From: Hyphomicrobiales bacterium | Lineage (GTDB): Bacteria > Pseudomonadota > Alphaproteobacteria > Rhizobiales > Methyloligellaceae | Assembly (NCBI GenBank): GCA_021775595.1 | Contig: JAJFHN010000039.1 | Span: 1-62,951 of the forward strand | Reading direction: 5' to 3' | Length of the DNA stretch: 62,951 bases | In this document: piece after piece, positions 17,394 to 45,644 of the stretch | Position numbering within the stretch: position 1 is the first letter of the stretch | Layout: the number at the start of each line of letters is the position of its first letter | Translations under genes and position numbers: made by a program | Notes under the pieces: model-generated | What the model saw: the letters and a program-made list of their open reading frames with translations, nothing else | What the model was told of the DNA's origin: nothing | Database searches by the model: none

Positions 17394-18479
17394 ATGTATA
17401 CAGAATTAGAAGGTAGATTACTTAAAGCTAAAATAGAACTAATGTCTAGGTCAGCATTTATTTCTACTATTGCTTTAAGTCTACGACATGTTATTACTTC
17501 GGATGTTAAAACAGCAGATGTAAATGGAATTACTGTCCGGTATAACCCAGACTTTGTAAGTACTTTAACCGTCCTCCAGTTTGCTACTTTGATAGCTCAT
17601 GAGTGCTGGCATGTAGCATTTCAGCATATTTCTCGTAGAGGTACTCGTAATCATTTTAGATGGAATGTAGCAGGAGATTATGTAATCAATCATACGTTGA
17701 ATAAAGCAGGATTTGATGTACTTCCTGATTGGCTACTTGATTCTAAGTATGACGATACCTGGTCTACTGATGCAGTATATGATGACTTGCCTGAACAGCC
17801 TCAAGCTTCAGGTAATTTCATGTTAGATCTAAACGAAGAACAAGCTGCAGAAATGCAGGAAGAAATTACAGATATTATTATGAGAGCACATGTTCAAGCA
17901 CAAATATCTGGAGAAGCAATTGCAGGATCTATTCCTGGAGAAATCTTACGATCTATAGATAAATTACTTAACCCTAAATTACCTTGGCCTGTTATTTTAA
18001 ATAAATTTCTGGATCAGAGAGTACAAGAAGAATACTCTTGGGCACGTAGAAATCGTAGATTTAGATCTACCTACATGCCTAGCTTGCATAACTACGGGCT
18101 AGGACACTTAACCTTTGCAATTGATACTAGCGGTAGTGTAGATGATGAAGAGCTTAGAGCAATGCTCAGTGAGATTCAGGGCATTCAACAAGTATTTAAT
18201 CCTCAACATATGACTATTATTGATTGTGATACACGTATTCATACTGTACATGAGATAGATCAAAATACAGATATTCTATCTCTGAAATTCAACGGGGGTG
18301 GAGGAACTAGATTCCAACCTGTGCTGGATTACATATCAGAACATCCTACTCAAGCTCTTGTATATTTTACTGATCTATACGGAGAAACTAAATTAGAAAA
18401 AGTAGATTATCCGGTTTTATGGATATGTAATTCAAATCATAAACCTGCTCCTATTGGAGAAACTGTATATGTCGATTAA
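17394..18479 (+). CDS. VWA-domain / HExxH protein (N4 gp25-like, DUF2201)
   Basis: 361 residues. The N-terminal half has TLIAHECWHVAFQH, an HExxH zinc-peptidase motif; the C-terminal half is a VWA domain with FAIDTSGSVDDEE (MIDAS DxSGS) and FTDLYGE. This is the DUF2201 layout. In N4-like phages it accompanies the AAA+ ATPase (14436), and MoxR ATPases commonly pair with VWA partners, so the two probably work together. The end overlaps the next gene. Confidence 0.85.
   Translation: MYTELEGRLLKAKIELMSRSAFISTIALSLRHVITSDVKTADVNGITVRYNPDFVSTLTVLQFATLIAHECWHVAFQHISRRGTRNHFRWNVAGDYVINHTLNKAGFDVLPDWLLDSKYDDTWSTDAVYDDLPEQPQASGNFMLDLNEEQAAEMQEEITDIIMRAHVQAQISGEAIAGSIPGEILRSIDKLLNPKLPWPVILNKFLDQRVQEEYSWARRNRRFRSTYMPSLHNYGLGHLTFAIDTSGSVDDEELRAMLSEIQGIQQVFNPQHMTIIDCDTRIHTVHEIDQNTDILSLKFNGGGGTRFQPVLDYISEHPTQALVYFTDLYGETKLEKVDYPVLWICNSNHKPAPIGETVYVD
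18452..18479 (+). repeat. 28 bp direct repeat, copy 1 (gene leader)
   Basis: Identical 28 bp at 18452-18479 and 18798-18825. Each copy carries TTGGAGAAAC, an ATG and the codons for MSI. It supplies the ribosome site and start of the genes at 18469 and 18815, so the leader itself was duplicated. Confidence 0.85.
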
Positions 18480-19746: not shown

Positions 19747-21588
19747 ATGGGTATTACTACAGTAATTTTGATTAAAGAAAATGCTAGAGGAGCTGCAGCA
19801 ATCGATGAGTATTATCTCAAGCCACTAGCTAAAGAAGGAATTACTGAAGAATCTGTTATATTGCTGCCCCTCATGTATAACACAGCAAGCAAAGTGTATG
19901 CTAAAACTGCTAAAGCCTACCTAAACAAACTAGTTACAAACTTTCCTGCTACTACTAAAAATATTATTATTGCAGACAGTAGTTATTTTAAATTTATTAC
20001 TGGAGCAGCAAAAGTATCTACCCATTATGGAAGTACTCTGCCTGGTAAGCATCCTGGGTATACACAGTTTACCTGTACATATGTACCTAATTACAAAAGT
20101 CTATTTAAACAACCTGAGAATGCTAAATTAATTGAATTAGGTATTAAAGCCATTGCCGGTACTTCGGCTTCTGTACGTATAGATTCAGCTGAGTTTGGAT
20201 TTAAATATGGATCCGATAGAGAATTACTAGATTCATTATATAAATACCCTGTACTTGCTGCAGATATTGAAACTACTGGATTACATATTACCAGTACTCC
20301 TGTATCTATTTCTTTTGCATGGTCTGAGCATGAAGGAATAGCTATCGATATATCAGTCAATGGCTGGTATTACACCAAGAAATTTCTAGAAACCTATAAG
20401 GGTAAACTAGTATTTCATGGTGGACTATATGATGCCAAATTACTTATCCGTAATTGGTGGATGGAGCATGAGTCTGATTGGGGAGGAATGCTAGAGGGTC
20501 TACAATATTTCAAAGATTTTGATGATACTTTGCTGATGGCTTATCTAGCTAAAAATTCTACTACTCATGTAGGGTTAGGACTAAAAGAACTAGCTTTAGA
20601 ATATGTGGGTAATTACGCAATTGAAATTCAAGATATAACTAAGTATACCAAAAAAGAGATTCTAAATTATAACTTGATAGATACCCTGGGTACTTTCTAT
20701 TTATATAAAAAGTATCAAGAACAATTGACTTCTAGAACTTATCTAGAAATACTTCAGCCTAGTATTTATACATTACTTAAAATCATGATAGTAGGATTGC
20801 CTCTGAATCATGAACGAGTAAAAGAAGTAAATAAAATTTTCAATGCTAAAGAAAAAGTACTACGAGAACAAATACAGACTAATAATTGTGTAATTTCTTT
20901 TACTGATATCCTTCAAAAAGATGCTTGTGAAAAAGCTAACGCTAAATTAAAAAAATTAGTTAAGCCTCTCAGCGATTTCAAAGATGTAGAGTTTAATCCT
21001 GGTAGTCATATACAAATAGCTAAATTATTATTTGATACTGAAAAACTTCCTGTCTTAGAAACAACTAAAGCTGGAGCTGCTTCTACTGGAGGAGATGTAT
21101 TAGAAGATTTAAAGAATCATACTAAAAATCAGGATGTGCTAGATTTACTTGTTTTCTTACAAGAACTAGCTGATATAACTAAAATAAATGGTACTTTTAT
21201 CAGTGCCTTCATGAAAGAGAAAGATTTCTTACATGGAAGTTTAAAGTTAGGAGCTACTCAATCTTCTAGGTTGGCCGGCAGTGATCCTAATTTGACAAAT
21301 CTTCCTGCCCATGGACCTATGGGTAAAATTACTAAAAGCTGTGTAGAAGCCCCTAAAAATTGGCTATTCGCTGCTGCTGACTTCGATGCATTAGAAGAAA
21401 AAGTAGGAGCTATTCTGAGTAAAGATCCTAATAGAATTAAAGTTTATACAGATGGGTTTGACGGACATTCTATGAGGGCTCAAAAATATTATGCTGATCA
21501 AATGCCAGATATTACTGAAGCTATAATTAAAGCAGATACAGCTACTGAATTCTGGATTAACGATAAAGGAGAATATTGCTGTGCATAG
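19747..21588 (+). CDS. DNA polymerase I family, N-terminal part (exonuclease plus motif A)
   Basis: 613 residues. After an N-terminal region of about 165 residues comes the 3'-5' exonuclease: AADIETTGL (Exo I, about 173), FHGGLYDAKLL (Exo II) and YNLIDTLGTFYLY (Exo III). The polymerase palm starts with SSRLAGSDPNLTNLPAHG and motif A AADFDALEEKVGAILSKD (about 543-560), the pol gamma-like phage type. The chain stops at a TAG after FWINDKGEYCCA, before motifs B and C. Those lie in the separate ORF at 22098. Together they give 849 residues, close to the N4 enzyme. Confidence 0.9.
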   Translation: MGITTVILIKENARGAAAIDEYYLKPLAKEGITEESVILLPLMYNTASKVYAKTAKAYLNKLVTNFPATTKNIIIADSSYFKFITGAAKVSTHYGSTLPGKHPGYTQFTCTYVPNYKSLFKQPENAKLIELGIKAIAGTSASVRIDSAEFGFKYGSDRELLDSLYKYPVLAADIETTGLHITSTPVSISFAWSEHEGIAIDISVNGWYYTKKFLETYKGKLVFHGGLYDAKLLIRNWWMEHESDWGGMLEGLQYFKDFDDTLLMAYLAKNSTTHVGLGLKELALEYVGNYAIEIQDITKYTKKEILNYNLIDTLGTFYLYKKYQEQLTSRTYLEILQPSIYTLLKIMIVGLPLNHERVKEVNKIFNAKEKVLREQIQTNNCVISFTDILQKDACEKANAKLKKLVKPLSDFKDVEFNPGSHIQIAKLLFDTEKLPVLETTKAGAASTGGDVLEDLKNHTKNQDVLDLLVFLQELADITKINGTFISAFMKEKDFLHGSLKLGATQSSRLAGSDPNLTNLPAHGPMGKITKSCVEAPKNWLFAAADFDALEEKVGAILSKDPNRIKVYTDGFDGHSMRAQKYYADQMPDITEAIIKADTATEFWINDKGEYCCA

Positions 21589-22126
21589 TCAGATTACTTC
21601 TTTAGATGATCTTATGATGTATTCAGTTAGTACAATTAGAAATAATTTAAAAGTGGATAAGATAAATAATAAAACAAAATTAATATTATTGAAATGGAAA
21701 ATACACTATACCCCGTTTCTAAGTAATAGTCATTGTTCTCCTATATCTGGAACAATAAATTCACAAGGGCAGGATCCTTATAAACCTAGGTCATACCCAG
21801 GATGGAAAGGTAGAGTTTGGGTATTTTATTCCCATTCTCCGAATGATTTTTGTAGCGAGTATTTTGAAAATAGTTTAATTCACACAGAATCTGGCGGGTA
21901 CGGATTATATGAAATTGAGGGAGATACTAATAATCATATTTCCCATCCTAAAGATTTACCAACTAATAGATGTGATAGATGGGCATATAAAGATATTTCT
22001 ATTTATCCCGCAAGCTATAACTGTAAAATATTTTTAGATGATTTACCTGGAATTAAAGCTTTAAATTTATTAGGTAATACAAATCCTGAACCATTTCATG
22101 AGTGTGTATATGAAAATGATCACTAA
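21581..22126 (+). CDS. ORF inserted between the two halves of DNA polymerase (181 aa)
   Basis: Starts at GTG 21581, 8 bases after AAAGGAG, overlapping the end of the N-terminal polymerase part, and ends inside the start of the C-terminal part. Protein-like (GQDPYKPRSYPGWKGRVWVF, HTESGGYGLYEIEGD) but I recognise no GIY-YIG, HNH or LAGLIDADG motif and no intein blocks. The DNA shows no group I core. It may be an unrecognised mobile gene or a polymerase accessory protein. Confidence 0.6.
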   Translation: MHSQITSLDDLMMYSVSTIRNNLKVDKINNKTKLILLKWKIHYTPFLSNSHCSPISGTINSQGQDPYKPRSYPGWKGRVWVFYSHSPNDFCSEYFENSLIHTESGGYGLYEIEGDTNNHISHPKDLPTNRCDRWAYKDISIYPASYNCKIFLDDLPGIKALNLLGNTNPEPFHECVYENDH

Positions 22127-22808
22127 AGAACAATATCTAGCTGGAATAGTTAATTCCATTGCAGATAAATATCCTCTACTAAGACAGAGTTCTAAACCAA
22201 ATACATTTGCTCTACAGTATGGGGGTACTTGGTATACTTTGCATGTTAGGGGAGGGTTGAGTAAAGAATTAGCTAAACAAGTAGAAAAGGCATTTCTAGA
22301 ACTCTATGCAGTATCGGTAGAGTGGGCACAAAGCAATGTAGAGTTCATGGAAAAGCATGGGTATATAGAATGTGCTTTCGGACTTAAACTAAGGACTCCT
22401 ATAATTTCACAATGTATCCTAGGTAATTCTAAGACCCCGTATGAAGCCACTAAAGAGGCTCGTAGTGCCAATAATGCAGTAACCCAATCTTGGGGTATGC
22501 TACTTAATAGAGCTATGAATGCCACCAATATACGCATAGAAGAAGCAGGGTATGGTCTACGTATTCTTCCCTGTAATATGATCCATGATGCTGGATATTT
22601 TCTCGTAGAAGATAACCCTAAAAGTATTCAATTTTTAAATGATGTGCTTATTCAGGAAATGTCTTGGAACGATGATGATCTAATTAGATCAACTGATGTA
22701 CCCATGTCTGCTTCACTTGAAATAGGAAAGTCATGGGATAAATTAACTAAATTACCTAATAACGCAACATTAGAGGAAATAAATGAACTTCTCCCCAGAT
22801 CAGGTTAA
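22098..22808 (+). CDS. DNA polymerase I family, C-terminal part (motifs B and C)
   Basis: 236 residues. KYPLLRQSSKPNTFALQYGG is motif B (fingers, RxxxKxxxF...YG) and MIHDAGYFLVED is motif C with the palm Asp. It follows exactly where the N-terminal part stops. No good ribosome site precedes ATG 22098 or the in-frame ATGs at 22110 and 22116, so translation probably depends on ribosomes ending the 21581 ORF. The enzyme is presumably reassembled from two chains, unless RNA or protein joining occurs. Confidence 0.85.
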   Translation: MSVYMKMITKEQYLAGIVNSIADKYPLLRQSSKPNTFALQYGGTWYTLHVRGGLSKELAKQVEKAFLELYAVSVEWAQSNVEFMEKHGYIECAFGLKLRTPIISQCILGNSKTPYEATKEARSANNAVTQSWGMLLNRAMNATNIRIEEAGYGLRILPCNMIHDAGYFLVEDNPKSIQFLNDVLIQEMSWNDDDLIRSTDVPMSASLEIGKSWDKLTKLPNNATLEEINELLPRSG

Positions 22809-34786: not shown

Positions 34787-34960
34787 ATGAAAAAGTTTAT
34801 AAAAAATAATTGGGTAAATATAAAGACTGCTTTTTATACTGCATTACTGGTAATTATAAGTATTACTATATTTACCGGGGTATACCTAGCTGGATTATTT
34901 GTAGCCGGCATAGCTTTAGTAGTTATTTTATTTATTTTAATAAAAGAAAAACTTAGTTAA
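34787..34960 (+). CDS. small membrane protein (57 aa)
   Basis: MKKFIKNNWVNIKTAFYTAL followed by two hydrophobic segments (LVIISITIFTGVYLAG and LFVAGIALVVILFILI). Last plus-strand gene; its stop overlaps the stop end of the vRNAP gene by 8 bases, so the two operons converge with no spacer. Confidence 0.6.
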   Translation: MKKFIKNNWVNIKTAFYTALLVIISITIFTGVYLAGLFVAGIALVVILFILIKEKLS

Positions 34961-37900
34961 ACGAGTTATTTAGAAAATCTAATATTAAATTTCCTCCAGT
35001 TACGCTAGTAGCTTCATCTGCCAAATCATCGAACTGAAGATAGTTCGGAGAGATATCTCCAGTAACCCAGGCACTATTTAGATTTCCTAGTGTCTCTACT
35101 CCAGTTAAGTATTGGGTAGCTGCAGACAGTCCTACTCCTGTAGGGCTGCTCTGCACTAGCTGCCTAGAAGATCTCTGATTACGCAGAAAGTAAGATAGAA
35201 ATGAAGTACCTCCTATGGCTTCTATAGCTTCCGCAATAGGGGTTAAATTCTCATCAAATAGTACAAATGAATCTAGTGCTATATGCATTGCAGGTTTAAA
35301 TTGCATGCCCTTTACAAGCGTTAAATGCTCGATCATTACATACCTAGCTAAGAAATCTGTTAGCTGTACAACTTGGTGTGCAAATTGATACCCTTCACTT
35401 GACTTAGTAAAGAACAAAGTAGTAGCTACTTTAGTCGCAGCAGTACTTACTTTTGTAGGAATTTTATCTACGAATTCAGTACGTTTACTGAATTTGAGCA
35501 TTCTCTGCACACGTCTAAAATACCCACTAGAAGAAGCTTCGTTTAGCCCCTCTAAAATAATTGAGTTTACACCGGCAGCACTCATTGCATGGATTCTGTT
35601 ATTGCTAATACTTATTCTCAGACGCTCAAGATTTTCTGCTCTTGTAACGGATGTCGGATGAGTATTAGGTAAAGGCTTAGTTGCTATTAAATGCTTTAAT
35701 TTATTAAGTTCATTATTATCATCACGATAGCGAACATACTCTTTGTATCCTTCATAGGCTTTATGCACTATGAAAGGTAAAGGTATTTTTTTCATCAATA
35801 GCTGATACACGTTAGATCTTATGTTATTTATGACAACTTGGGGCATAGCAATAACAATACGATCTTTACCATACCCCACAACTTGCCGGAGTATATGATG
35901 GATATTACGTACATAGTACTTGGCCCTATTCATAGAAGGTTTTTGAAGCCAGGATAGCTCACTTAAATCCCACGCTTTAAAGCCGAATACTTTATTGATA
36001 ATATCTCTTCTGATCATAAATACGCCATTTACTGCAAATTGGTCTATATAGTCTCGTACTTCTCTAGGAAGATTTCTATATTGATCCGCATATTTAGAAT
36101 TTGGATCTAAAAAATTAATAAATTGTTTTGGATGAGATAAGAATAAATCTTGTTGTTCGTGCACAAGACTTTCTATAATTTTCTTATCACTACTGATTGT
36201 GTATTTACGATCTACATATCTAGACTCCATATGCGCAAATACATTTTGTATTTCTAGATCCGGTTTAAGTAATTCTCTTTTAGTTTCATGATCCATCATT
36301 ACTCGATAGTCAGTAATTTTGTCTCGGTCATTTCTAACAGGAATTAATTTTACTGGATCAGCAGAAGGAGTGGATCCAAAAGATGTTTCTCTTTTAATTA
36401 TTGCTTGGATATCTTTATTTATCTTTCTAATATCCGGTTTACCGGTAGCAGGATTTAAATAGCCTGGATCCTTCATAAATATTTCAGTTAATGTAGTACC
36501 TTTATTGCGCTGGTTTGATGTGGACATCATTCCGGATACAAAGGGTACATCAGGCATCGTACGAGATACGTAGATAGTATCGTGTGTTTGTGCAATACCT
36601 GGTATTTTACCAATAGGATAGGATTCAGTGTAACCACCTATTCTCATCTGTTCAGCATCAGTAGCTTTACCGGTTACAGTATTGGTGAGATCATCTACAC
36701 GTTCTACAATATACCCTTTAATAATCTGACTAGGATTATGTTTAAATAAATGTTGAATAGATTTATCTTTAAAAGCTAGATGACTATCCAGCATATCGAT
36801 GAATCCATTTTCTGTGGAATTTTGTGCAAATTCTGCATTAGCTAAATCTTTAACTAACCCTCCTTGATTACTATTTATTTTAGTTAATGCCTCTAAAGTA
36901 GCATAAGCATCTAATAACATAATCGTGTTTTCGCTAGTATCCCCTAGAAACTGTCGAGCAATTGTGTATACATTGGTGTGTTGGTTATGTAATTTACTGC
37001 GTTTACCTGTAATAATCCATTTGCCCAGGGCATCAGTATACTCTCTAGCATCATAGGTAAATGCTTTACCCAATTTCCTATGGATATCTCTCTTTGCTAT
37101 TTTAATTCCATTAGGGTTATTAATTAATTGACTGATTGCATGACTGGTTAACCCAACTCTACGCAGACTAGATAGATCTGTACGTAAGAGTATATTAGTC
37201 AATGCTTCTCTGATCTTGACTGGCATAGCTCCAGGTTTACTAGCATCAACTGATTTCCAAATACTATTAAACCAGTCTGTGGTAAATCGTTCAGCTTCAT
37301 GTCTTCCTTTAGATATATTAACTTTAGCATGCAGTAACTGTTCGATTAAAACTTTAGAAAGAGCCCCTCCTCCAATTTCATTAGCTAGATCTTTTAAAGT
37401 ATCATTCAAAGTTTCATGAGCTTGCTGTCTAATGGCTAATGCAGCAGCACTGTCACTCATAATAATTGTAGGTGCGCCAGCAATACCACTAATTACTTTT
37501 CGTAATCTAGTGGTAGGAACTGTTTCAATGACTCTACTACTGTGCTTAATGAAAGTTTCTTTAATTTTTTGATCTGTTTCGTCTAAAAATTTATAACCTT
37601 TATTAGCTAACTTCTGAAATTGACTCTGATGCTTACTTTGTATCGCTACAAGATGTTCAAGTACTGCAAGCATTTCATGAAATTGATTAGCACTTATAGG
37701 AGTGCGTAATCCTCTTTGTAATATTCTTTCAAAAGTAGCAACTACAAGATCCAACACTTCCAATAGTCTACCTAATATAGTTTTGTCTCTTACTTTCTTA
37801 GTAGGTATACGATTAGAAAGAAAGTGAATCATCTCTTTGTTGGTTAGTGCATGAGCTAAGAATTCATCTAATCTATTGGCTTCATTCTTTGTATTTTTAA

Positions 37901-40900
37901 ATACATATACATAAGTCTTTTTAGCTAGGGCAATATCCTCAGCTGAATGTGGACCCGTTAGACCACTTAAAAATACTTTATAGCCATCTGTCCCCATTTC
38001 ATTTTTAATCTCATGAAACAGCTTGTTAACCTTCGCTGCAATCAATGGAGTATTTTTCAGTACAGTACGGGTAATAGCATGTAATGTCTCATGTACGTAT
38101 ACTTCTTGAGGGGATTTAGTATTAGCTGAATCAGGTACTTGTCGGCTAAGAGAAATACGCATAGCATTTCTGGCGCCTTCCCATTGACCTTGAGTAATAC
38201 CGTCTATATCTTCCCAGGTAAGGTTAATTTTCGTAGTAGAATTCAATCCTTTAGCTAGTACACCAAGTACTTTATCTAAGATAGTAGAATGTGTATTCTG
38301 CTCTTCTTGATTAGCATAGTAATTACTAGATAATTTTTTAAATTGACTATTCAAAGTATGAATACTTTTGGAATCAATATCTCCTACTAGTCTTTTAGTT
38401 TCATTTGATCTAGGAAGATTACTCAAAGATTCTAGTATATCTGCATCTGGTTTATTTTCATTTTTGGTTTCCCATACGCTTGTATGGCCTAGATCATTAA
38501 TAGTTTTTATAACATCATTTACTGCCGGCTTCTGTGAAGTAATTTTTGGATCGTATATTCCCATATACATTTGATTAGATAATATCTTGCCTCCACCTTC
38601 TTCAGAGATAAGTTCCTCCAAATTTTGTCTAGCTTGAAATACATTAATATTGGCATTTTCAACATCAGTAATTAAATTATAAATACTAGTTTTTGATTCA
38701 CCGGGTTTTGTAAATCTATTTACATATGCTTCTTTTTTGATCCATCTATCTGCAGCAGACATTATAGCAGGACTAGATAATTCTTTAACTGCGGCTATTT
38801 GATCTACCATAGCCTGCATAATGCTATGTGTTCTTCCTATTTTCGTGTAGACCCTACCATAGCCTTTGGATACTTCTACTAGATCTACAGGACTACCCAT
38901 ATACGCGTCATGTAGCATTAAAGTATTGGGATGCTGATTTAGTATTAATGTCAATAATGTAGCATCGATATTAATAATCATACGGATTAGGGCAGCAACA
39001 CCAGGAGAATCGAATTTGGTCTGATTAGCAGATCCAGTAAGTCTTTTTGGTTTACCTTTTGTCTCCCCTTTAGTCCATACTTCTACTTTTTCTGCATTCG
39101 TATCAGAACGATCTACTATCTGTGAACTTAGATCTACAAAAGAAGTATCCTCAGAATCCAACGAAGACATATATCCTTTATATTGAGGCAGTACTTTTAT
39201 TAATACATCACTCTTAACTAGCTCAGCTACTTCTCTCTTTGTTAACGCTGTTCTTCCTGGCATGGTAGCTAGTAATGCTTTTTCTGCTTTATTGTAATGA
39301 GCCATGAATATAGCATGGAGAACTTCCCCTCCAGATATAATAGCTTGTCTAGCTGGCCCAGTACCTCCAAGCATTTCATTTAATCCAAGATCAAATCTCG
39401 GTGCAAGAACTTTACCAATAGTTTCTATTAATTTTTTATCTTCAAAACGTATTTCTTTATATTTACCAGATTCAATAATTTTTTTATTAGCTCTAGATCT
39501 ACGTCTAATATCTATTACTAAACTTGTAGTATCGTAACCTTTTTTAAACGCATTTAGTTCTGTTAATTGGCTAGCAAAAGGCACAACAATATCTTGTAGA
39601 TACTGCTCTTTGCCTGATTTAGGAGGAATAGTGATATCTTCTAAAAATTCTGGTCTGGTTGTACCAGGCATAGCATTATACGTTTTCTGTATAGTGTTTA
39701 AATGATCATAAATATCATCTACTATATTCTTAGCTACACCTTGACTAATACTTTCTGTTCCGCCTCCATACATGAAAATAAGAAAAGGATATTTTACTAG
39801 ATCTCGCAAATCTCCGTTTTTCAGATCAGGAAATAGAATCTCTAATGCTGTATTCTTTCTAGTGTAAGTAGTATTTGTATATCCTAGTTCAGTTTCATTA
39901 GCATACTCTACTCCGGAATACTTCTTAATTAATTCAGCTAGTCTTTGGTAGGTATCTTTGGCTTCTGTTTTATGACGGGTATCATTACCTATATATGTAC
40001 CGGTACGATTTAATTGAGTTTCTATATCATCATTGCCTTCTTCATCTGTAAACATAGGAAACTGCATAACATTAATGGCAAAACCGTTAGTAATACCATC
40101 AATCTCAAATACTATGTCCGAAGTAAATGTATCGTTTTCTTTGTATTTAGATAGCCCAGTTAATGCATTTAATATAGACATATTGCCCCCAAATTTACTT
40201 TGGATAACTGGCAATACTCTAGCTAACTCGTTTAACTGAACTACTTCGTTAAATCCATTTTGGATATCTTGGATAGCTTTTATAGCTGTCTGCACATCTT
40301 CGTTATTATATCGTTCTTCAAATGCTTCTATAGCAGCCTCAGGAGCGTTCTTATCTACTGCAAATCCTAAGTTGGCAGCTGCAGCCATCTTAAAGAGATG
40401 AACGTTACTGGCGTTGTATATGACAGCCTTAAAAGGTTTTACAAGCCAACGATCAACTTTACTTTGTTGAGGATTTATATCTCCCTGCATCATAATACGA
40501 TGATGATTCTGCAAAGCATATGTAAAGTAAAAACCCTCTAAATCGCCATTAGTATTAGCTTCCAATATTCTATCAAGTGCATCTGTCTTATCTCTATTAG
40601 AAGCTTCTCTGGATCCCCTGATGTCTTCATGATCAGTATAGTCATAAGACTGGGTTCCTATAAGAGATTCTAATGCACTTCTGTGTGACTGGTTTAGGGC
40701 AGCTACAATATCTACAGTTTCTGCTTTATCCCATTTAACATTTTGGAGTTTTGTAATAACTTCAGTAACTTTTTTAGGAACTCCCCCAAAAGAATTACGA
40801 ACAGAAGTAATTTTTCTTTTGCTAGGACGTTTTAATAAACTTCCTCCTTCGGTATTTATATCTACATCAATTGCTTCTGCAATTTCTTCAATTGCAGTAA

Positions 40901-43900
40901 GTTGATTTACATTAAATTTAATTGGGGCATTGTTATGTAAAATATGTTTATAAGTATTTTGATGTCCTTTCTCATTCCTGTTATTGAATATACGGTCTTT
41001 TGAGTACATTCTTGCAAAATTCCATGAATGCTCTTCTACACGGAAAGTTGCTTCAGCATCTGTACCTTGTTCAATATGAACTGCTAACAATCCTAAAGCA
41101 GGAATTAATTTATCAAAATACAGCCCTACAGATTTATCTTTAGGAGACAGATTTAATATGTTAGTAACGGTAATACCTATTTCATTACTAGCTTGCTGAT
41201 AACTATGCCCTAAATCTTTAATTTCAGTTTCTTCGTTAGTGGATAGCTTTTGTTTTCCCCCATATAGAAACATTTCCCTAGCAAACTCACTTTTAAGTGG
41301 ATTACTTGTAGGATTCCTCTGAGTCCAATTTAGAGTACCTAGCATCATGCTAAATAGCACTTGAGGAGGTAACTCGTTATCCTGGTAGAGAATAGATAAA
41401 GGTTGATGTAAGGCGTAGTTACCAGTGTCTGTGTCATTATTAAAATTAATCTTGTCATACCTGGCTTTATATCTAAAATACGCACTAGATAAAATAGCTG
41501 CAGATTTTTCAGATGTACCTATATCTATAAGACTAGTTATTAAATATTTCTCTGTCGTAAAGGCTATATTTGGAAGAGTATGTATACCTTCTTTTGCTTC
41601 AGTATTTAGACCTACTAGATCTAAGAATGCCTTACCTAGGATTTTCATAGTAGCCTCTGCATTAGAGGCTATTTTGTGAGCAAGTTTAGCCGCTCTTACT
41701 ACTTTACCATATGGTTTTTTATTCTTCTTTTCTTCAGCTTTAACAGAAACTTCTTTAGCTTCCGCTAGTTGTTTATTAGTTATAGCTACTGTAGGAGTAT
41801 CAGTAGATCCTTCTATAAAATTCTTTGTGTTAGGCAGCTTGTCGAGAGCCCCATTAATTTCATCGATAGTGGCCTCTACACCAAGTAGCTTAGATAAAGT
41901 AGCTAATACAGTAGAATCTGTATTTGCTTTTACTTTATTATCTTTTGTAATTTCTTCGGAAAATACAATCCGAAAAGCCTGTTTACTATGCTCTGTTTTA
42001 GGTATAAAGCGTTCTTTCTTAGAAAACTCTTCTTCTGTAACTAGTTCACTATATTGTTTATCAATAGCGCCTTCAAAAGATTCTTCTGTATTGTTCTCTT
42101 CACTATAATCCTCTGCGTTTAGTTCATCAAAATTAACAGGTTGATTAGATCTTTTCTTGGCACCTTTAAGTAACAGTACTGATCCGGATTCCAGTACTTG
42201 ATCAAATAAAGTAGTAGAAATACCTGAAGGTATTCCTAGTAACTTCCTAATAGCAACACTAAAATCAGACCATAACGAAGAAGTGGACGCAGATTCAATT
42301 GCGTCTATAGCTTGAAGTATCTCTTGAGCATTTACGCTAGTAAGTCCATGAACTAATAATTCCTCTACTTTAGCAGGATCAATCTTATTATCTGTGTGGA
42401 ATCTTTTTCCACTGATACGCGCAATATACTCTTTAGTGCGTGTAAGGGTATATTCCCTGGCTCCTTCTTTTCCAGATGATTGTAGTTTCTTTACTAATGC
42501 CCTTAGTTTTTTTGGATCATTTAAAATATCTCTCAACTTTGCTGCAATAGCATGTAAATCAGAAACTGCAGCTTTCTCTTCAGCAGTCTTTGGAGCATTG
42601 AATGTACCAGTTACAGCATGGTGTAATATCTCATGGAGCAAGGTAGCTTCAGTTAACCCTTTGCGACTTATAACTATTCTAGTTGGTACACCCTCGGCAT
42701 TCTCAGCTCTTCCAGCTATTGCAGAATTTTCTTTAAACTTTTCAGTAAAAGTTATAGGAATATTTTTACCAATTTTCCCTTGTATAACTTGTGCTATTTT
42801 TCTAAATGATTTATTAGAAGTGTTATCGATAAGCCACTGCAAAGCTACTTCTGTTGTTCCAAACGAAAGAACTATTTCTTTGGTGAGTTGGGGAGCTCTC
42901 TTGCTTTTACCTTTTTCAGTTGTAGAGGATTTCCTATCTCTAGTGGAGCTTCGTTTAGAATCTCTGTCTTGTTGAGCATCCGGAGTAGGAGATTCAGAAC
43001 TTTCAGCTTTCCCCTCAGATCCTGGAGTTTTCCTTTTAGTTCTGGAAGTCTCGGATACTTTACGTTCAAATCCAGCTTTCTTGTCTGTATTAGTTTCATT
43101 AATAGCTCCAAAAGTTCCCGCATCAACATCTGCTTGATGAGGATCTTTATCTATAGGTTTAGCTGCTTTATCAATAGCTTCCTGATCAATAGGTACTTTT
43201 TCTTTTTCTGGGTTTACTGCACCTAATTGCGCACTAAGTTCTTGAGCTGCTTTAGTACTTATTGCAAGTTTATCTGCACTCTTTTTAAAAGAAGTATTTT
43301 TATACCCTTTTACGACTGCTAATATTTTCTTACTGTAAGCTACTTCTTTCGTAAGAGTACTCAGTAACTTCCCAGAATTTTTATGGATACTAGTTAAAAA
43401 CTCCCCCTCATTTCTACGTCTATTAAATTCTGTAGTAGACATAGCGGGTAATACTGTATATTTCATACTTCTATCTGAAGGAATATTAGGGCTAACTCGT
43501 ACCCCTTTAACTACTATTTCTTCTCCAGATTTTCTAGGTACTTTTTGGGCTGCAATAAATGCATTAAGCTTCTTATTTAGATTTGCTGCATGCGTATTCA
43601 TTTTAGCTTCAATAGCTGCAATCTTTGAATTCGCTAATGCTTGATCTTTTTCATCTTTTAATATTTTGTAGATCTCTTGGCTATATGTTTTTAATCCAGT
43701 CCACCTACTGGATATACTTCCGGTAGTAGCTTCTTCATGGACTGTATCCATGCTTTTAATATTAGCTGATTCTTGCTGCCTAGTTAGTTCTTGTGCAAGC
43801 TGTTTAGCTTCTTGACCATCTTTAATTGCTTTTCGATCTAAAGGAGTAAGCTCATGCTTTGCTTGTATTCTATCTACTTCTTCCGGATCTAAACCTTCAG

Positions 43901-45644
43901 CAACCTCCTGAAAACTAAAAAGAGTATCAGATTCCTTCTGTTTATCTAGATCTGCTTTTAGAGCCTCCTGAGCTTGCCTCTTAGCGCCTTCAAATGCGAT
44001 ACCCTGCTCTACGTTATGGACTCGTTCTCCTAGCGCCATAAGTGTGTTTACGGCGGCTACAGGGTCTTTAATAAAATCTAACGTGGCTATTGTTTCATCA
44101 AATTCTTCTTTAGAGATAGTTGTACCTTTTTTAGGGTCAACAACCGGAGGTTTATTTTCTTCTTCAAATTTCTTTGTATAGGCTTCTTTAAGTTTAGTAA
44201 GTTCTGCTTTAAATACTACAGATTCTTCTCCGGTTAATTTAACATTTGCTCTATCAATAAGTGTTTGCTTTTCTGTTCCTAAGTTACTGATAGTTGTTTC
44301 ATCTGTAGCACTAGCAAGTGCTTGTTCAATCTTCTGTATTTTCTGGGCTATATCATCGCCCTCTTTGGTATCTCCAATAGTACCGGGATCTTCTGAATCT
44401 ATTTTAGTTTGTATTCCTGTCAATATTTCTTGTTGTTGAGCTACCTTTTCTTCTTCTGGGGTAAGGGCTTTAGTTGTAAGTTTCTTCAGAGTAACAGCTG
44501 CAATATCATATGCACCTTTTCCTGCTGCTGCCCCTGCTATACCTCCAGGAACAGCTACCATTTCAGCTAAAGAAGCAAAACCGATCTCAGCAGTATCTGT
44601 AATCTTTCCAGAAGCAGCTAATTGCTCTGCAGTGGCAGTAAGTCCACCAGATAGTGCTTCCCCCAATAAACCTTCAAGAGGTCTGAATACAGTAAGATTT
44701 AGTACGCTAGGAGGAGTAGATTGTCTAACTTGATTTGCTACTCCTTTCATCCATGAAAATCTACCAGGAATGGCACGTACGGCAGCAACATCTCCATACT
44801 TTTCAAAAACCTGAGCTACAGCAGAATATGCTTTAATTCTAAAAGTTTCGTCAGCATCTGGTCTTCGCTTGTTTACTTTTGTAAATTCTTCTACTGCTTG
44901 ATTTCCTTTACCAATAGCTAAAGTACTAAGTATAGCCATTTGGGTAGTAGGTCCGCCTAGAGTAAGTGCAACCATGTAGGGAATACTAGGTACACCTTGC
45001 TCTAATAAAGTAGGTAGATCATTTTGAACAGCATTCCATACAGCTGATACAACGCCTTTATTATCCGCGATAGTTTTAAATGCAGTAACAGCTCCGTATA
45101 AATCTCTTCTATTTACTGGAATAGTATCTTTTATATTTTGGCTAAAATCGGCAATAGCTTTAAGATTTTCAGGATCTGTAGTAAATGCAGAGGCTGCTGT
45201 TTCTCCAATGTTAACTATATTTTGTCCAAATTCATTAACTTGATTACCCACAAAAGATGTAGGAGCACCTGCTGCTGTTGCTCTAGCATTTTCCTGGTTA
45301 TATGCAGCAAATGATTTTGCGTCTAGTTCACTTAACCCACTAACTACTTTTCCCTCTGCTGTTCGGACAGTATAAGTACCATCGATATGTCTAGATATAT
45401 TACCCTGCTGTTCTGCAATGGGAACATCAGGAGGACCTATTTTATTAGTATCTTCAGTAGATTGAGCAATACTATTGAGTAAGTCTGCATTAGGTTCTCC
45501 TACAGAAGTATCTATTTCGGCGGGAGCTTCTGCAAATGCGTTAAGCAGCTGATCTTTAGTACTTTGAATTACAGCAGCTTTAGCTTCGGTTGCTGCAGCT
45601 ATTTCTGCTTTTTTATTTTCTATACGAGAAGTAAGTAAATCCAT
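34953..45644 (-). CDS. virion RNA polymerase (N4 gp50-like)
   Basis: 3563 residues, like N4 gp50 (3500). The central domain carries the T7-type motifs: motif A VFEIDGITNGF (Asp1849), motif B RDLVKYPFLIFMYGGG (Arg1947, Lys1951, Tyr1959) and motif C LMLHDAYMGS (Asp2246). In N4 it is packaged, injected with the DNA, and transcribes early genes from hairpin promoters. N-terminal TM-like and coiled regions occur near residues 200-400. Two HExxH motifs, LLHEILHHA (1004-1008) and VYVHETLHAI (2518-2522), lie outside the polymerase core, like inserted zincin modules. Last gene of the late operon. Confidence 0.95.
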   Translation of the reverse strand: MDLLTSRIENKKAEIAAATEAKAAVIQSTKDQLLNAFAEAPAEIDTSVGEPNADLLNSIAQSTEDTNKIGPPDVPIAEQQGNISRHIDGTYTVRTAEGKVVSGLSELDAKSFAAYNQENARATAAGAPTSFVGNQVNEFGQNIVNIGETAASAFTTDPENLKAIADFSQNIKDTIPVNRRDLYGAVTAFKTIADNKGVVSAVWNAVQNDLPTLLEQGVPSIPYMVALTLGGPTTQMAILSTLAIGKGNQAVEEFTKVNKRRPDADETFRIKAYSAVAQVFEKYGDVAAVRAIPGRFSWMKGVANQVRQSTPPSVLNLTVFRPLEGLLGEALSGGLTATAEQLAASGKITDTAEIGFASLAEMVAVPGGIAGAAAGKGAYDIAAVTLKKLTTKALTPEEEKVAQQQEILTGIQTKIDSEDPGTIGDTKEGDDIAQKIQKIEQALASATDETTISNLGTEKQTLIDRANVKLTGEESVVFKAELTKLKEAYTKKFEEENKPPVVDPKKGTTISKEEFDETIATLDFIKDPVAAVNTLMALGERVHNVEQGIAFEGAKRQAQEALKADLDKQKESDTLFSFQEVAEGLDPEEVDRIQAKHELTPLDRKAIKDGQEAKQLAQELTRQQESANIKSMDTVHEEATTGSISSRWTGLKTYSQEIYKILKDEKDQALANSKIAAIEAKMNTHAANLNKKLNAFIAAQKVPRKSGEEIVVKGVRVSPNIPSDRSMKYTVLPAMSTTEFNRRRNEGEFLTSIHKNSGKLLSTLTKEVAYSKKILAVVKGYKNTSFKKSADKLAISTKAAQELSAQLGAVNPEKEKVPIDQEAIDKAAKPIDKDPHQADVDAGTFGAINETNTDKKAGFERKVSETSRTKRKTPGSEGKAESSESPTPDAQQDRDSKRSSTRDRKSSTTEKGKSKRAPQLTKEIVLSFGTTEVALQWLIDNTSNKSFRKIAQVIQGKIGKNIPITFTEKFKENSAIAGRAENAEGVPTRIVISRKGLTEATLLHEILHHAVTGTFNAPKTAEEKAAVSDLHAIAAKLRDILNDPKKLRALVKKLQSSGKEGAREYTLTRTKEYIARISGKRFHTDNKIDPAKVEELLVHGLTSVNAQEILQAIDAIESASTSSLWSDFSVAIRKLLGIPSGISTTLFDQVLESGSVLLLKGAKKRSNQPVNFDELNAEDYSEENNTEESFEGAIDKQYSELVTEEEFSKKERFIPKTEHSKQAFRIVFSEEITKDNKVKANTDSTVLATLSKLLGVEATIDEINGALDKLPNTKNFIEGSTDTPTVAITNKQLAEAKEVSVKAEEKKNKKPYGKVVRAAKLAHKIASNAEATMKILGKAFLDLVGLNTEAKEGIHTLPNIAFTTEKYLITSLIDIGTSEKSAAILSSAYFRYKARYDKINFNNDTDTGNYALHQPLSILYQDNELPPQVLFSMMLGTLNWTQRNPTSNPLKSEFAREMFLYGGKQKLSTNEETEIKDLGHSYQQASNEIGITVTNILNLSPKDKSVGLYFDKLIPALGLLAVHIEQGTDAEATFRVEEHSWNFARMYSKDRIFNNRNEKGHQNTYKHILHNNAPIKFNVNQLTAIEEIAEAIDVDINTEGGSLLKRPSKRKITSVRNSFGGVPKKVTEVITKLQNVKWDKAETVDIVAALNQSHRSALESLIGTQSYDYTDHEDIRGSREASNRDKTDALDRILEANTNGDLEGFYFTYALQNHHRIMMQGDINPQQSKVDRWLVKPFKAVIYNASNVHLFKMAAAANLGFAVDKNAPEAAIEAFEERYNNEDVQTAIKAIQDIQNGFNEVVQLNELARVLPVIQSKFGGNMSILNALTGLSKYKENDTFTSDIVFEIDGITNGFAINVMQFPMFTDEEGNDDIETQLNRTGTYIGNDTRHKTEAKDTYQRLAELIKKYSGVEYANETELGYTNTTYTRKNTALEILFPDLKNGDLRDLVKYPFLIFMYGGGTESISQGVAKNIVDDIYDHLNTIQKTYNAMPGTTRPEFLEDITIPPKSGKEQYLQDIVVPFASQLTELNAFKKGYDTTSLVIDIRRRSRANKKIIESGKYKEIRFEDKKLIETIGKVLAPRFDLGLNEMLGGTGPARQAIISGGEVLHAIFMAHYNKAEKALLATMPGRTALTKREVAELVKSDVLIKVLPQYKGYMSSLDSEDTSFVDLSSQIVDRSDTNAEKVEVWTKGETKGKPKRLTGSANQTKFDSPGVAALIRMIINIDATLLTLILNQHPNTLMLHDAYMGSPVDLVEVSKGYGRVYTKIGRTHSIMQAMVDQIAAVKELSSPAIMSAADRWIKKEAYVNRFTKPGESKTSIYNLITDVENANINVFQARQNLEELISEEGGGKILSNQMYMGIYDPKITSQKPAVNDVIKTINDLGHTSVWETKNENKPDADILESLSNLPRSNETKRLVGDIDSKSIHTLNSQFKKLSSNYYANQEEQNTHSTILDKVLGVLAKGLNSTTKINLTWEDIDGITQGQWEGARNAMRISLSRQVPDSANTKSPQEVYVHETLHAITRTVLKNTPLIAAKVNKLFHEIKNEMGTDGYKVFLSGLTGPHSAEDIALAKKTYVYVFKNTKNEANRLDEFLAHALTNKEMIHFLSNRIPTKKVRDKTILGRLLEVLDLVVATFERILQRGLRTPISANQFHEMLAVLEHLVAIQSKHQSQFQKLANKGYKFLDETDQKIKETFIKHSSRVIETVPTTRLRKVISGIAGAPTIIMSDSAAALAIRQQAHETLNDTLKDLANEIGGGALSKVLIEQLLHAKVNISKGRHEAERFTTDWFNSIWKSVDASKPGAMPVKIREALTNILLRTDLSSLRRVGLTSHAISQLINNPNGIKIAKRDIHRKLGKAFTYDAREYTDALGKWIITGKRSKLHNQHTNVYTIARQFLGDTSENTIMLLDAYATLEALTKINSNQGGLVKDLANAEFAQNSTENGFIDMLDSHLAFKDKSIQHLFKHNPSQIIKGYIVERVDDLTNTVTGKATDAEQMRIGGYTESYPIGKIPGIAQTHDTIYVSRTMPDVPFVSGMMSTSNQRNKGTTLTEIFMKDPGYLNPATGKPDIRKINKDIQAIIKRETSFGSTPSADPVKLIPVRNDRDKITDYRVMMDHETKRELLKPDLEIQNVFAHMESRYVDRKYTISSDKKIIESLVHEQQDLFLSHPKQFINFLDPNSKYADQYRNLPREVRDYIDQFAVNGVFMIRRDIINKVFGFKAWDLSELSWLQKPSMNRAKYYVRNIHHILRQVVGYGKDRIVIAMPQVVINNIRSNVYQLLMKKIPLPFIVHKAYEGYKEYVRYRDDNNELNKLKHLIATKPLPNTHPTSVTRAENLERLRISISNNRIHAMSAAGVNSIILEGLNEASSSGYFRRVQRMLKFSKRTEFVDKIPTKVSTAATKVATTLFFTKSSEGYQFAHQVVQLTDFLARYVMIEHLTLVKGMQFKPAMHIALDSFVLFDENLTPIAEAIEAIGGTSFLSYFLRNQRSSRQLVQSSPTGVGLSAATQYLTGVETLGNLNSAWVTGDISPNYLQFDDLADEATSVTGGNLILDFLNNSFN

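Follow-up and report, generated by a model that had tools for sequence, protein, structure and literature searches.

A phage DNA polymerase gene split between motifs A and B, with conserved added ends and a changing cargo gene

A polymerase gene in two pieces and the ORF between them

The window, by which we mean the whole 62,951-nucleotide stretch of DNA analysed here, is a phage contig (C36) in a 2.9 Mb bacterial assembly that is rated 97.8% complete; it may come from a lytic phage binned along with the bacterium or from a resident phage. Judged from its sequence, the DNA polymerase of the window is of family A and of the N4-like phage type, and it is encoded in two pieces with a small open reading frame between them (Table 1). 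The first piece (p1) contains a 3'-5' exonuclease domain and matches positions 9-203 of the Pfam model DNA_pol_A. The second piece (p3) matches positions 204-380, which puts the two matches end to end in the model. Searched against phage records, p1 matched 1777 of them, with 80% or more of the query covered in 752, and p3 matched 491, including phage N4 at 39.7%.

An earlier note on this DNA had placed three ORFs at 19747-21588, 21581-22126, and 22098-22808, with the exonuclease and motif A in one ORF and motifs B and C in another, and had described a polymerase split by an unrelated ORF. The ORFs are at these positions, Pfam agrees with the division of the motifs, and the Pfam halves and the non-matching ORF between them (p2) support the split. 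The third ORF and its end were borne out; its start was not, as the relatives described below suggest that p3 is best started at 22110 rather than at 22098.

Table 1. Features of the split polymerase locus
Feature	Coordinates	Strand	Remarks
p1, N-terminal polymerase chain (3'-5' exonuclease, thumb, motif A), 613 aa	19747..21588	+	ends in added tail
Tail, 24 extra residues at the end of p1	21514..21585	+	common to L001, L005, and L100; intact polymerases lack it
Ribosome site AAAGGAG (21565-21571) and GTG start of p2 (21581-21583)	21565..21583	+	within tail codons
p2, 181-aa orphan ORF (cargo)	21581..22126	+	coding score; no relatives in the databases scanned
Head, extra N-terminus of p3, MKMITKEQYLAGI	22110..22148	+	similar in kind in L001, L005, L100, and L012
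p3, C-terminal polymerase chain (motifs B and C), 232 aa from the ATG at 22110	22110..22808	+	Pfam, relatives
Whole module (tail, cargo, and head), 637 nt	21513..22149	+	replaces 23 nt found in the intact polymerase of L106

As the note had proposed, p2 has a ribosome site of its own, with the GTG lying 9 nt past it. p2 overlaps both of its neighbours, and its coding score is 0.07 in its own frame versus -0.36 and -0.74 in the other two. (As a yardstick, 13 genes of the window score 0.06-0.34 in frame.) The note had also called for a search for the 181-aa family, and none was found in the databases that we scanned: p2 has no relatives in PHROGs, Pfam, NCBIfam, PADLOC, PDB sequences, phage records, or plasmids, nor in exact-peptide scans of IMG/VR and GTDB contigs. 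The single Pfam line for p2 (E = 0.13) is under its cut-off, and a structure model of p2 has a pLDDT of 30. Against 30 related phage records, p2 gave two short matches, in L011 (E = 8e-4) and L010 (E = 0.004). We set both aside; the match in L011 is on the minus strand and inside a 533-aa ORF that we read as a terminase.

A search of the assembly for family A polymerases gave one further match, on contig C16 (532.7 bits), which is presumably the bacterial PolA. When p3 was compared to 299 related genomes, 188 matched: the window itself and 187 others, none of them better than E = 6e-10. These 187 weaker matches, at about 20-31% identity among the matches listed, are probably bacterial PolA as well.

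Two other genes of the window deserve comment. The gene at 17394-18479 carries the PHROG label "HNH endonuclease", which looks wrong, as Pfam identifies a putative metallopeptidase/VWA pair (DUF2201). On the minus strand, 34953-45644 is a 3563-aa ORF, which we take to be, perhaps, the virion RNA polymerase, given its size and the N4-like context.

Split and intact polymerases in related phages

We searched IMG/VR twice and obtained 57 and 58 loci, many of them from the same contigs. We entered 113 loci into a test of the split site, of which 94 were assessable and 53 were distinct. The intact polymerases that the earlier note wanted sought in relatives turned out to be the rule: in 49 of the 53 distinct assessable polymerases, the two halves are joined by 15-48 nt. 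In the other four (L001, L005, L100, and L150), the halves are 632-2040 nt apart. L149 is split at the same site and falls outside the test of 53 polymerases, and L003 and L012 contain the right side of the split only. The note had worried about an assembly error, which is unlikely because L001, L005, and L100 (and L003 and L012 for the right side) share the split with a similar tail and head, and these are separate contigs under separate IMG identifiers.

In the window, L001, L005, and L100, the host gene is divided at this site into ORFs that have start and stop codons of their own. In all four, p1 continues after "..PDI" with [TV]xAxxKAxTATxFWIxxxGEYCCx, which is 24 residues followed by a stop codon. 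In these four and in L012, p3 opens with M[KN]x(x)I[TS]K[EK][EQ]Y[LI][AV]Gx. Intact polymerases have neither the tail nor the head, and the close ones show "DPxxVxS" or similar at this place. L149 and L150 have added ends of other kinds.

Pairwise comparisons suggest that the added ends are constrained, with the limit that the pairs are not independent. Across 17 codons of the tail, amino-acid changes were below the expectation from random mutation in all six pairs (P from 0 to 0.044). Across 8 codons of the head, there were fewer amino-acid changes than from random mutation in 2 of 10 pairs (P < 0.05), so the head is less sure than the tail. The last codons of the tail double as the ribosome site and start of the cargo, and they may be conserved for the p2 start rather than for the protein. 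A GTG in the frame of p2 lies 2 nt ahead of the stop codon of p1 in all four phages (L001 and L005 have extra in-frame starts further upstream). At the other end of the cargo, the start of p3 overlaps the end of p2 in the window, L005, and L100, and is 8 nt past it in L001.

Beyond these loci, a scan of GTDB contigs with the tail pattern gave two matches, neither of them inside polymerase sequence, and the tail alone as a query had no match in phage records. Among the 60 p3 matches listed (of 491), 57 start at residue 14 of the query or later. The other three, from Vibrio phages D505, D501, and D511, start at residue 7; we inspected the sequence of D505 and it has no head. In the phage records that we inspected, we found no uninterrupted polymerase with a tail-like loop. 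In IMG/VR, L126 (3860-4100) has a polymerase in a single ORF with a 16-aa loop that resembles the first half of the tail, which is perhaps a healed split.

The gene between the halves differs from phage to phage. In L005 it encodes a GIY-YIG protein (31.1 versus a Pfam cut-off of 22.6) and in L149 it encodes HNH_3 and NUMOD4 domains, both over their cut-offs. In L150, NUMOD models matched, but under their cut-offs. The window (181 aa), L001 (192 aa), and L100 (287 aa) have orphan ORFs. The cargo ORFs of the window, L001, and L005 are mutually dissimilar, as judged by BLAST and by shuffles; by eye, we had noticed a likeness between those of the window and L001, which we rejected because 66 of 300 shuffles scored as high. 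We also searched p2 and the ORF of L100 against each other's records and against the other split records, and found nothing beyond the weak matches in L011 and L010. The earlier note had suggested that p2 might be a polymerase subunit. This is hard to accept, because the cargo changes among phages and the same place in other phages holds ORFs that are not detectably related. Its other suggestion, a mobile gene, fared better. Known homing endonucleases occupy the same place in relatives, so the orphan ORFs may be unrecognised homing endonucleases. p2 is best read as mobile cargo, either an unrecognised nuclease or a passenger, and the argument for its mobility comes from the relatives because p2 itself has no family.

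L001 (2880-5454) and L007 (88-2653) are also split at another site, immediately before motif A. This second site holds an ORF of the HNH/AP2 type (66% alike between L001 and L007), along with added ends of its own. As both sites are occupied in L001, its polymerase is in three pieces. Vibrio phage BUCT194 (L155) has about 65 extra residues in frame just before motif A, within one continuous polymerase ORF. In L149 (3890-4120), the right-hand polymerase chain shifts frame soon after its start, which could be a real break or a sequence error. Escherichia phages Uz-1 (L095) and Bp4 (L159) each have two annotated polymerase coding sequences, which in Uz-1 do not look like a true split. In Uz-1, intact sequence continues through three frames, so we read the two coding sequences as due to a frameshift or a sequence error, and the polymerase of Bp4 has the same layout.

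The split and intact forms are intermingled in the trees. In a tree of p3 (36 rows), L100 is sister to the intact L006 and L009 (97/94), and L012 is sister to the intact L016 and L023 (98/92). A single clade for the five rows with the tail or head is rejected (p-AU = 4e-104). In the tree of p1, a single clade for the four rows with the tail is barely rejected (p-AU = 0.043) and the position of L100 is not resolved. The split forms thus do not make up one clade. Furthermore, the intact L006 is the best match to L100 on both sides of the site, with 95-96% amino acid identity. (At the DNA level, these two are 77-85% identical over 500 nt on the left and 73-88% identical over 600 nt on the right.) The trees and the likeness of these flanks imply an exchange of the two states, split and intact, between lineages, either through gain by homing or through repeated loss.

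A putative mobile module and its alternatives

Across these phages, the sequences show a split at one site, a conserved tail and head, a cargo that changes, no recognisable intron or intein, and a patchy distribution. The explanation that we favor, and in which we have fair confidence, is that a mobile module of tail, cargo, and head sits in an essential gene and that the enzyme functions as a docked pair of chains. Within this explanation, we infer that the two chains are active together, that the tail and head dock them, and that the module spreads by homing driven by an endonuclease. The family A polymerase of the phage would be produced as two separate chains that come together with no covalent bond between them, which was one of the possibilities raised in the earlier note and is the best reading of the sequences. 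A compact module, lying in the loop that connects motif A to motif B, would have caused the split; in order, it is made up of a tail that is fused to p1, an exchangeable cargo gene, and a head that is fused to p3. The cargo would be translated by re-initiation at the overlapping stop and start codons, with the tail and head as the likeliest means of docking the two chains. The cargo itself would be a free-standing mobile gene (GIY-YIG or HNH/NUMOD in some relatives, and an unrecognised nuclease or a passenger in the window), and endonuclease-driven homing would have spread the module.

More tentatively, this might be a class of module that brings its own pair of docking tags, which would make the insertion tolerable and would provide a slot for exchangeable cargo. 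If so, an essential polymerase could carry one gene or another within it with no need for splicing of RNA or protein.

Alternatively, there might have been a single old split, with intact alleles returning repeatedly by recombination with intact relatives. The enzyme would still work as two chains, but the cargo alone would be mobile, and the tail and head would not be parts of a mobile module. The similarity of the tails and heads across phages would then be expected, as would the single ORF of L126, which apparently retains the first half of a tail as if it had healed, and the p1 tree is only just at odds with a single clade. The strong rejection of one clade by the p3 tree, where L012 and L100 are each sister to intact polymerases, argues against an old split, although repeated loss could still yield this pattern. 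We consider an old split unlikely.

We give less credence to the idea that the polymerase, once split, has lost or is losing its function and that another enzyme replicates the phage. Of the residues that are invariant in 19 intact relatives, the window retains 82 of 86 in p1 and 51 of 52 in p3. The departures in p1 are F228Y (also in L001), G503A, S511G, and G543A, three of which sit in or near polymerase motifs. Given these four departures, function may be reduced in this one phage. Also, the contig of 62.9 kb may be incomplete and our search for another polymerase covered family A. However, among the other split polymerases, L100 retains all of the invariant residues (86 of 86 and 52 of 52) and L005 retains 85 of 86 and 52 of 52; furthermore, p1 and p3 are both open reading frames and the tail shows constraint. 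We also modeled p1 alone with AF2 (24-row alignment; mean pLDDT 79.8). The pLDDT is below 50 at residues 502-514, 538-557, 559-582, and 591-613. These stretches take in much of the palm as well as the tail, so the model gives no support for docking; these regions may have low confidence because the other half of the protein is missing.

A self-splicing intron, perhaps of an undescribed kind, that carries p2 and leaves the message is very unlikely. This gene family does include group I introns that carry HNH genes: Rfam identifies a group I intron elsewhere in the polymerase gene of L150 (1588-1818, 73.1 bits) and a weak match in L142 (2914-3706, 23.3 bits, below the gathering score). The intron of L150 lies between "..FSSL" and "EDR..", and L053 has an insert with an HNH ORF at a like place; the stretch in L142 follows "..SSSDP" and includes an ORF with the look of an HNH gene. 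At the split, Rfam found no intron in the window (21000-22700, E ≤ 5), where the only matches were to two snoRNAs and were sub-threshold. It also found none in L001, L005, L007, or L012, nor at the split sites of L100, L149, and L150. These negatives are not absolute, because the stretch of about 0.75 kb in L053 that includes the HNH ORF is a probable intron and Rfam found nothing there at E ≤ 0.5. But every base of the insert is coding in three of the four modules (the window, L005, and L100), and in L001 the exception is the 8 nt between p2 and p3. Nor is the insert a clean interruption, as it takes the place of about 21-23 nt and extends the coding sequence on both sides, and p3 has its own ATG. 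The RNA fold at the module is not unusual (z = -1.25) and repeats there are unremarkable. We agree with the earlier note that no group I core is visible and that this is not an ordinary intron or intein.

Inteins require far more residues than the 24 of the tail and the roughly 13 of the head, and Pfam found no intein family on p1 or p3. The unusual joining event that the note had also entertained is not supported: as computed from the coordinates, the offset in frame between p1 and p3 is 2, 0, 2, and 0 in the window, L001, L005, and L100, and every p3 (in these phages and in L012) has its own ATG. That a split intein or recoding (frameshifting or bypass) joins the chains is thus scarcely credible, even though the polymerase PolB of Pseudomonas phage MIJ3, as far as the available text describes it, has a split intein with an endonuclease gene between the halves (PMC6892783).

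These phages provide a natural series of one polymerase, from intact to two pieces to three (in L001), in which the same split is reused by unrelated cargo. This makes the survival of mobile genes in essential genes without splicing testable. For a family A polymerase, they also offer split points chosen by natural selection, along with peptides that are candidates for docking.

Comparison with known split genes

Phage enzymes encoded in two pieces with another ORF at the split are already known, from NrdA of Aeromonas phage Aeh1, gp43A/gp43B of Aeromonas phage 25, and PolA of the OM43 phage MEP401. (We compare these systems as they are described in the available portions of the cited papers.) In Aeh1, mobE splits the gene into NrdA-a and NrdA-b, and the two chains form an active enzyme (PMC2988022, PMC3267527). 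There, as is proposed for the window, the gene for an essential enzyme is split by a free-standing mobile gene, with the two-chain activity being demonstrated for NrdA and predicted for the window. Besides involving another enzyme, the split of the window's type differs in recurring in several phages with unrelated cargo and with similar tails and heads. In phage 25, according to a review, the products of gp43A and gp43B, which are associated with seg43, co-purify and are active (PMC2988022). This is a replicative polymerase in two genes with an ORF at the split, which in phage 25 is an endonuclease gene. The review calls that polymerase B-type, in contrast to family A in the window, and it leaves open whether the endonuclease made the split (PMC2988022).

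Two other systems are similar in layout. The polB gene of MIJ3 is broken around an HNH endonuclease gene, with coding ends on both halves, but intein blocks are reported there, and the added ends in the window are far too short for this (PMC6892783). In the insertional fission of cox2 in Campsomeris, the two resulting genes complement each other and flank an ORF for a putative nuclease; in contrast to the phage polymerases, this is a single case in a wasp mitochondrial gene, and the portion of the account available describes no recurrent cargo (PMC5374615).

Within the available text of the literature that we searched, there was no account of a split between motifs A and B with a conserved tail and head, and in the open-licence literature, a split PolA with an orphan ORF was found only in the OM43 phages, at another site (PMC10580990). 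In these phages, MEP401 and MEP402, two ORFs encode a family A polymerase and flank a small orphan ORF, much as in the window, and the authors suspect an intron (PMC10580990). By our reading of the sequence, the break in MEP401 appears to lie just before motif A, which corresponds to the second split site of L001 and L007 and not to the site between motifs A and B that is occupied in the window.
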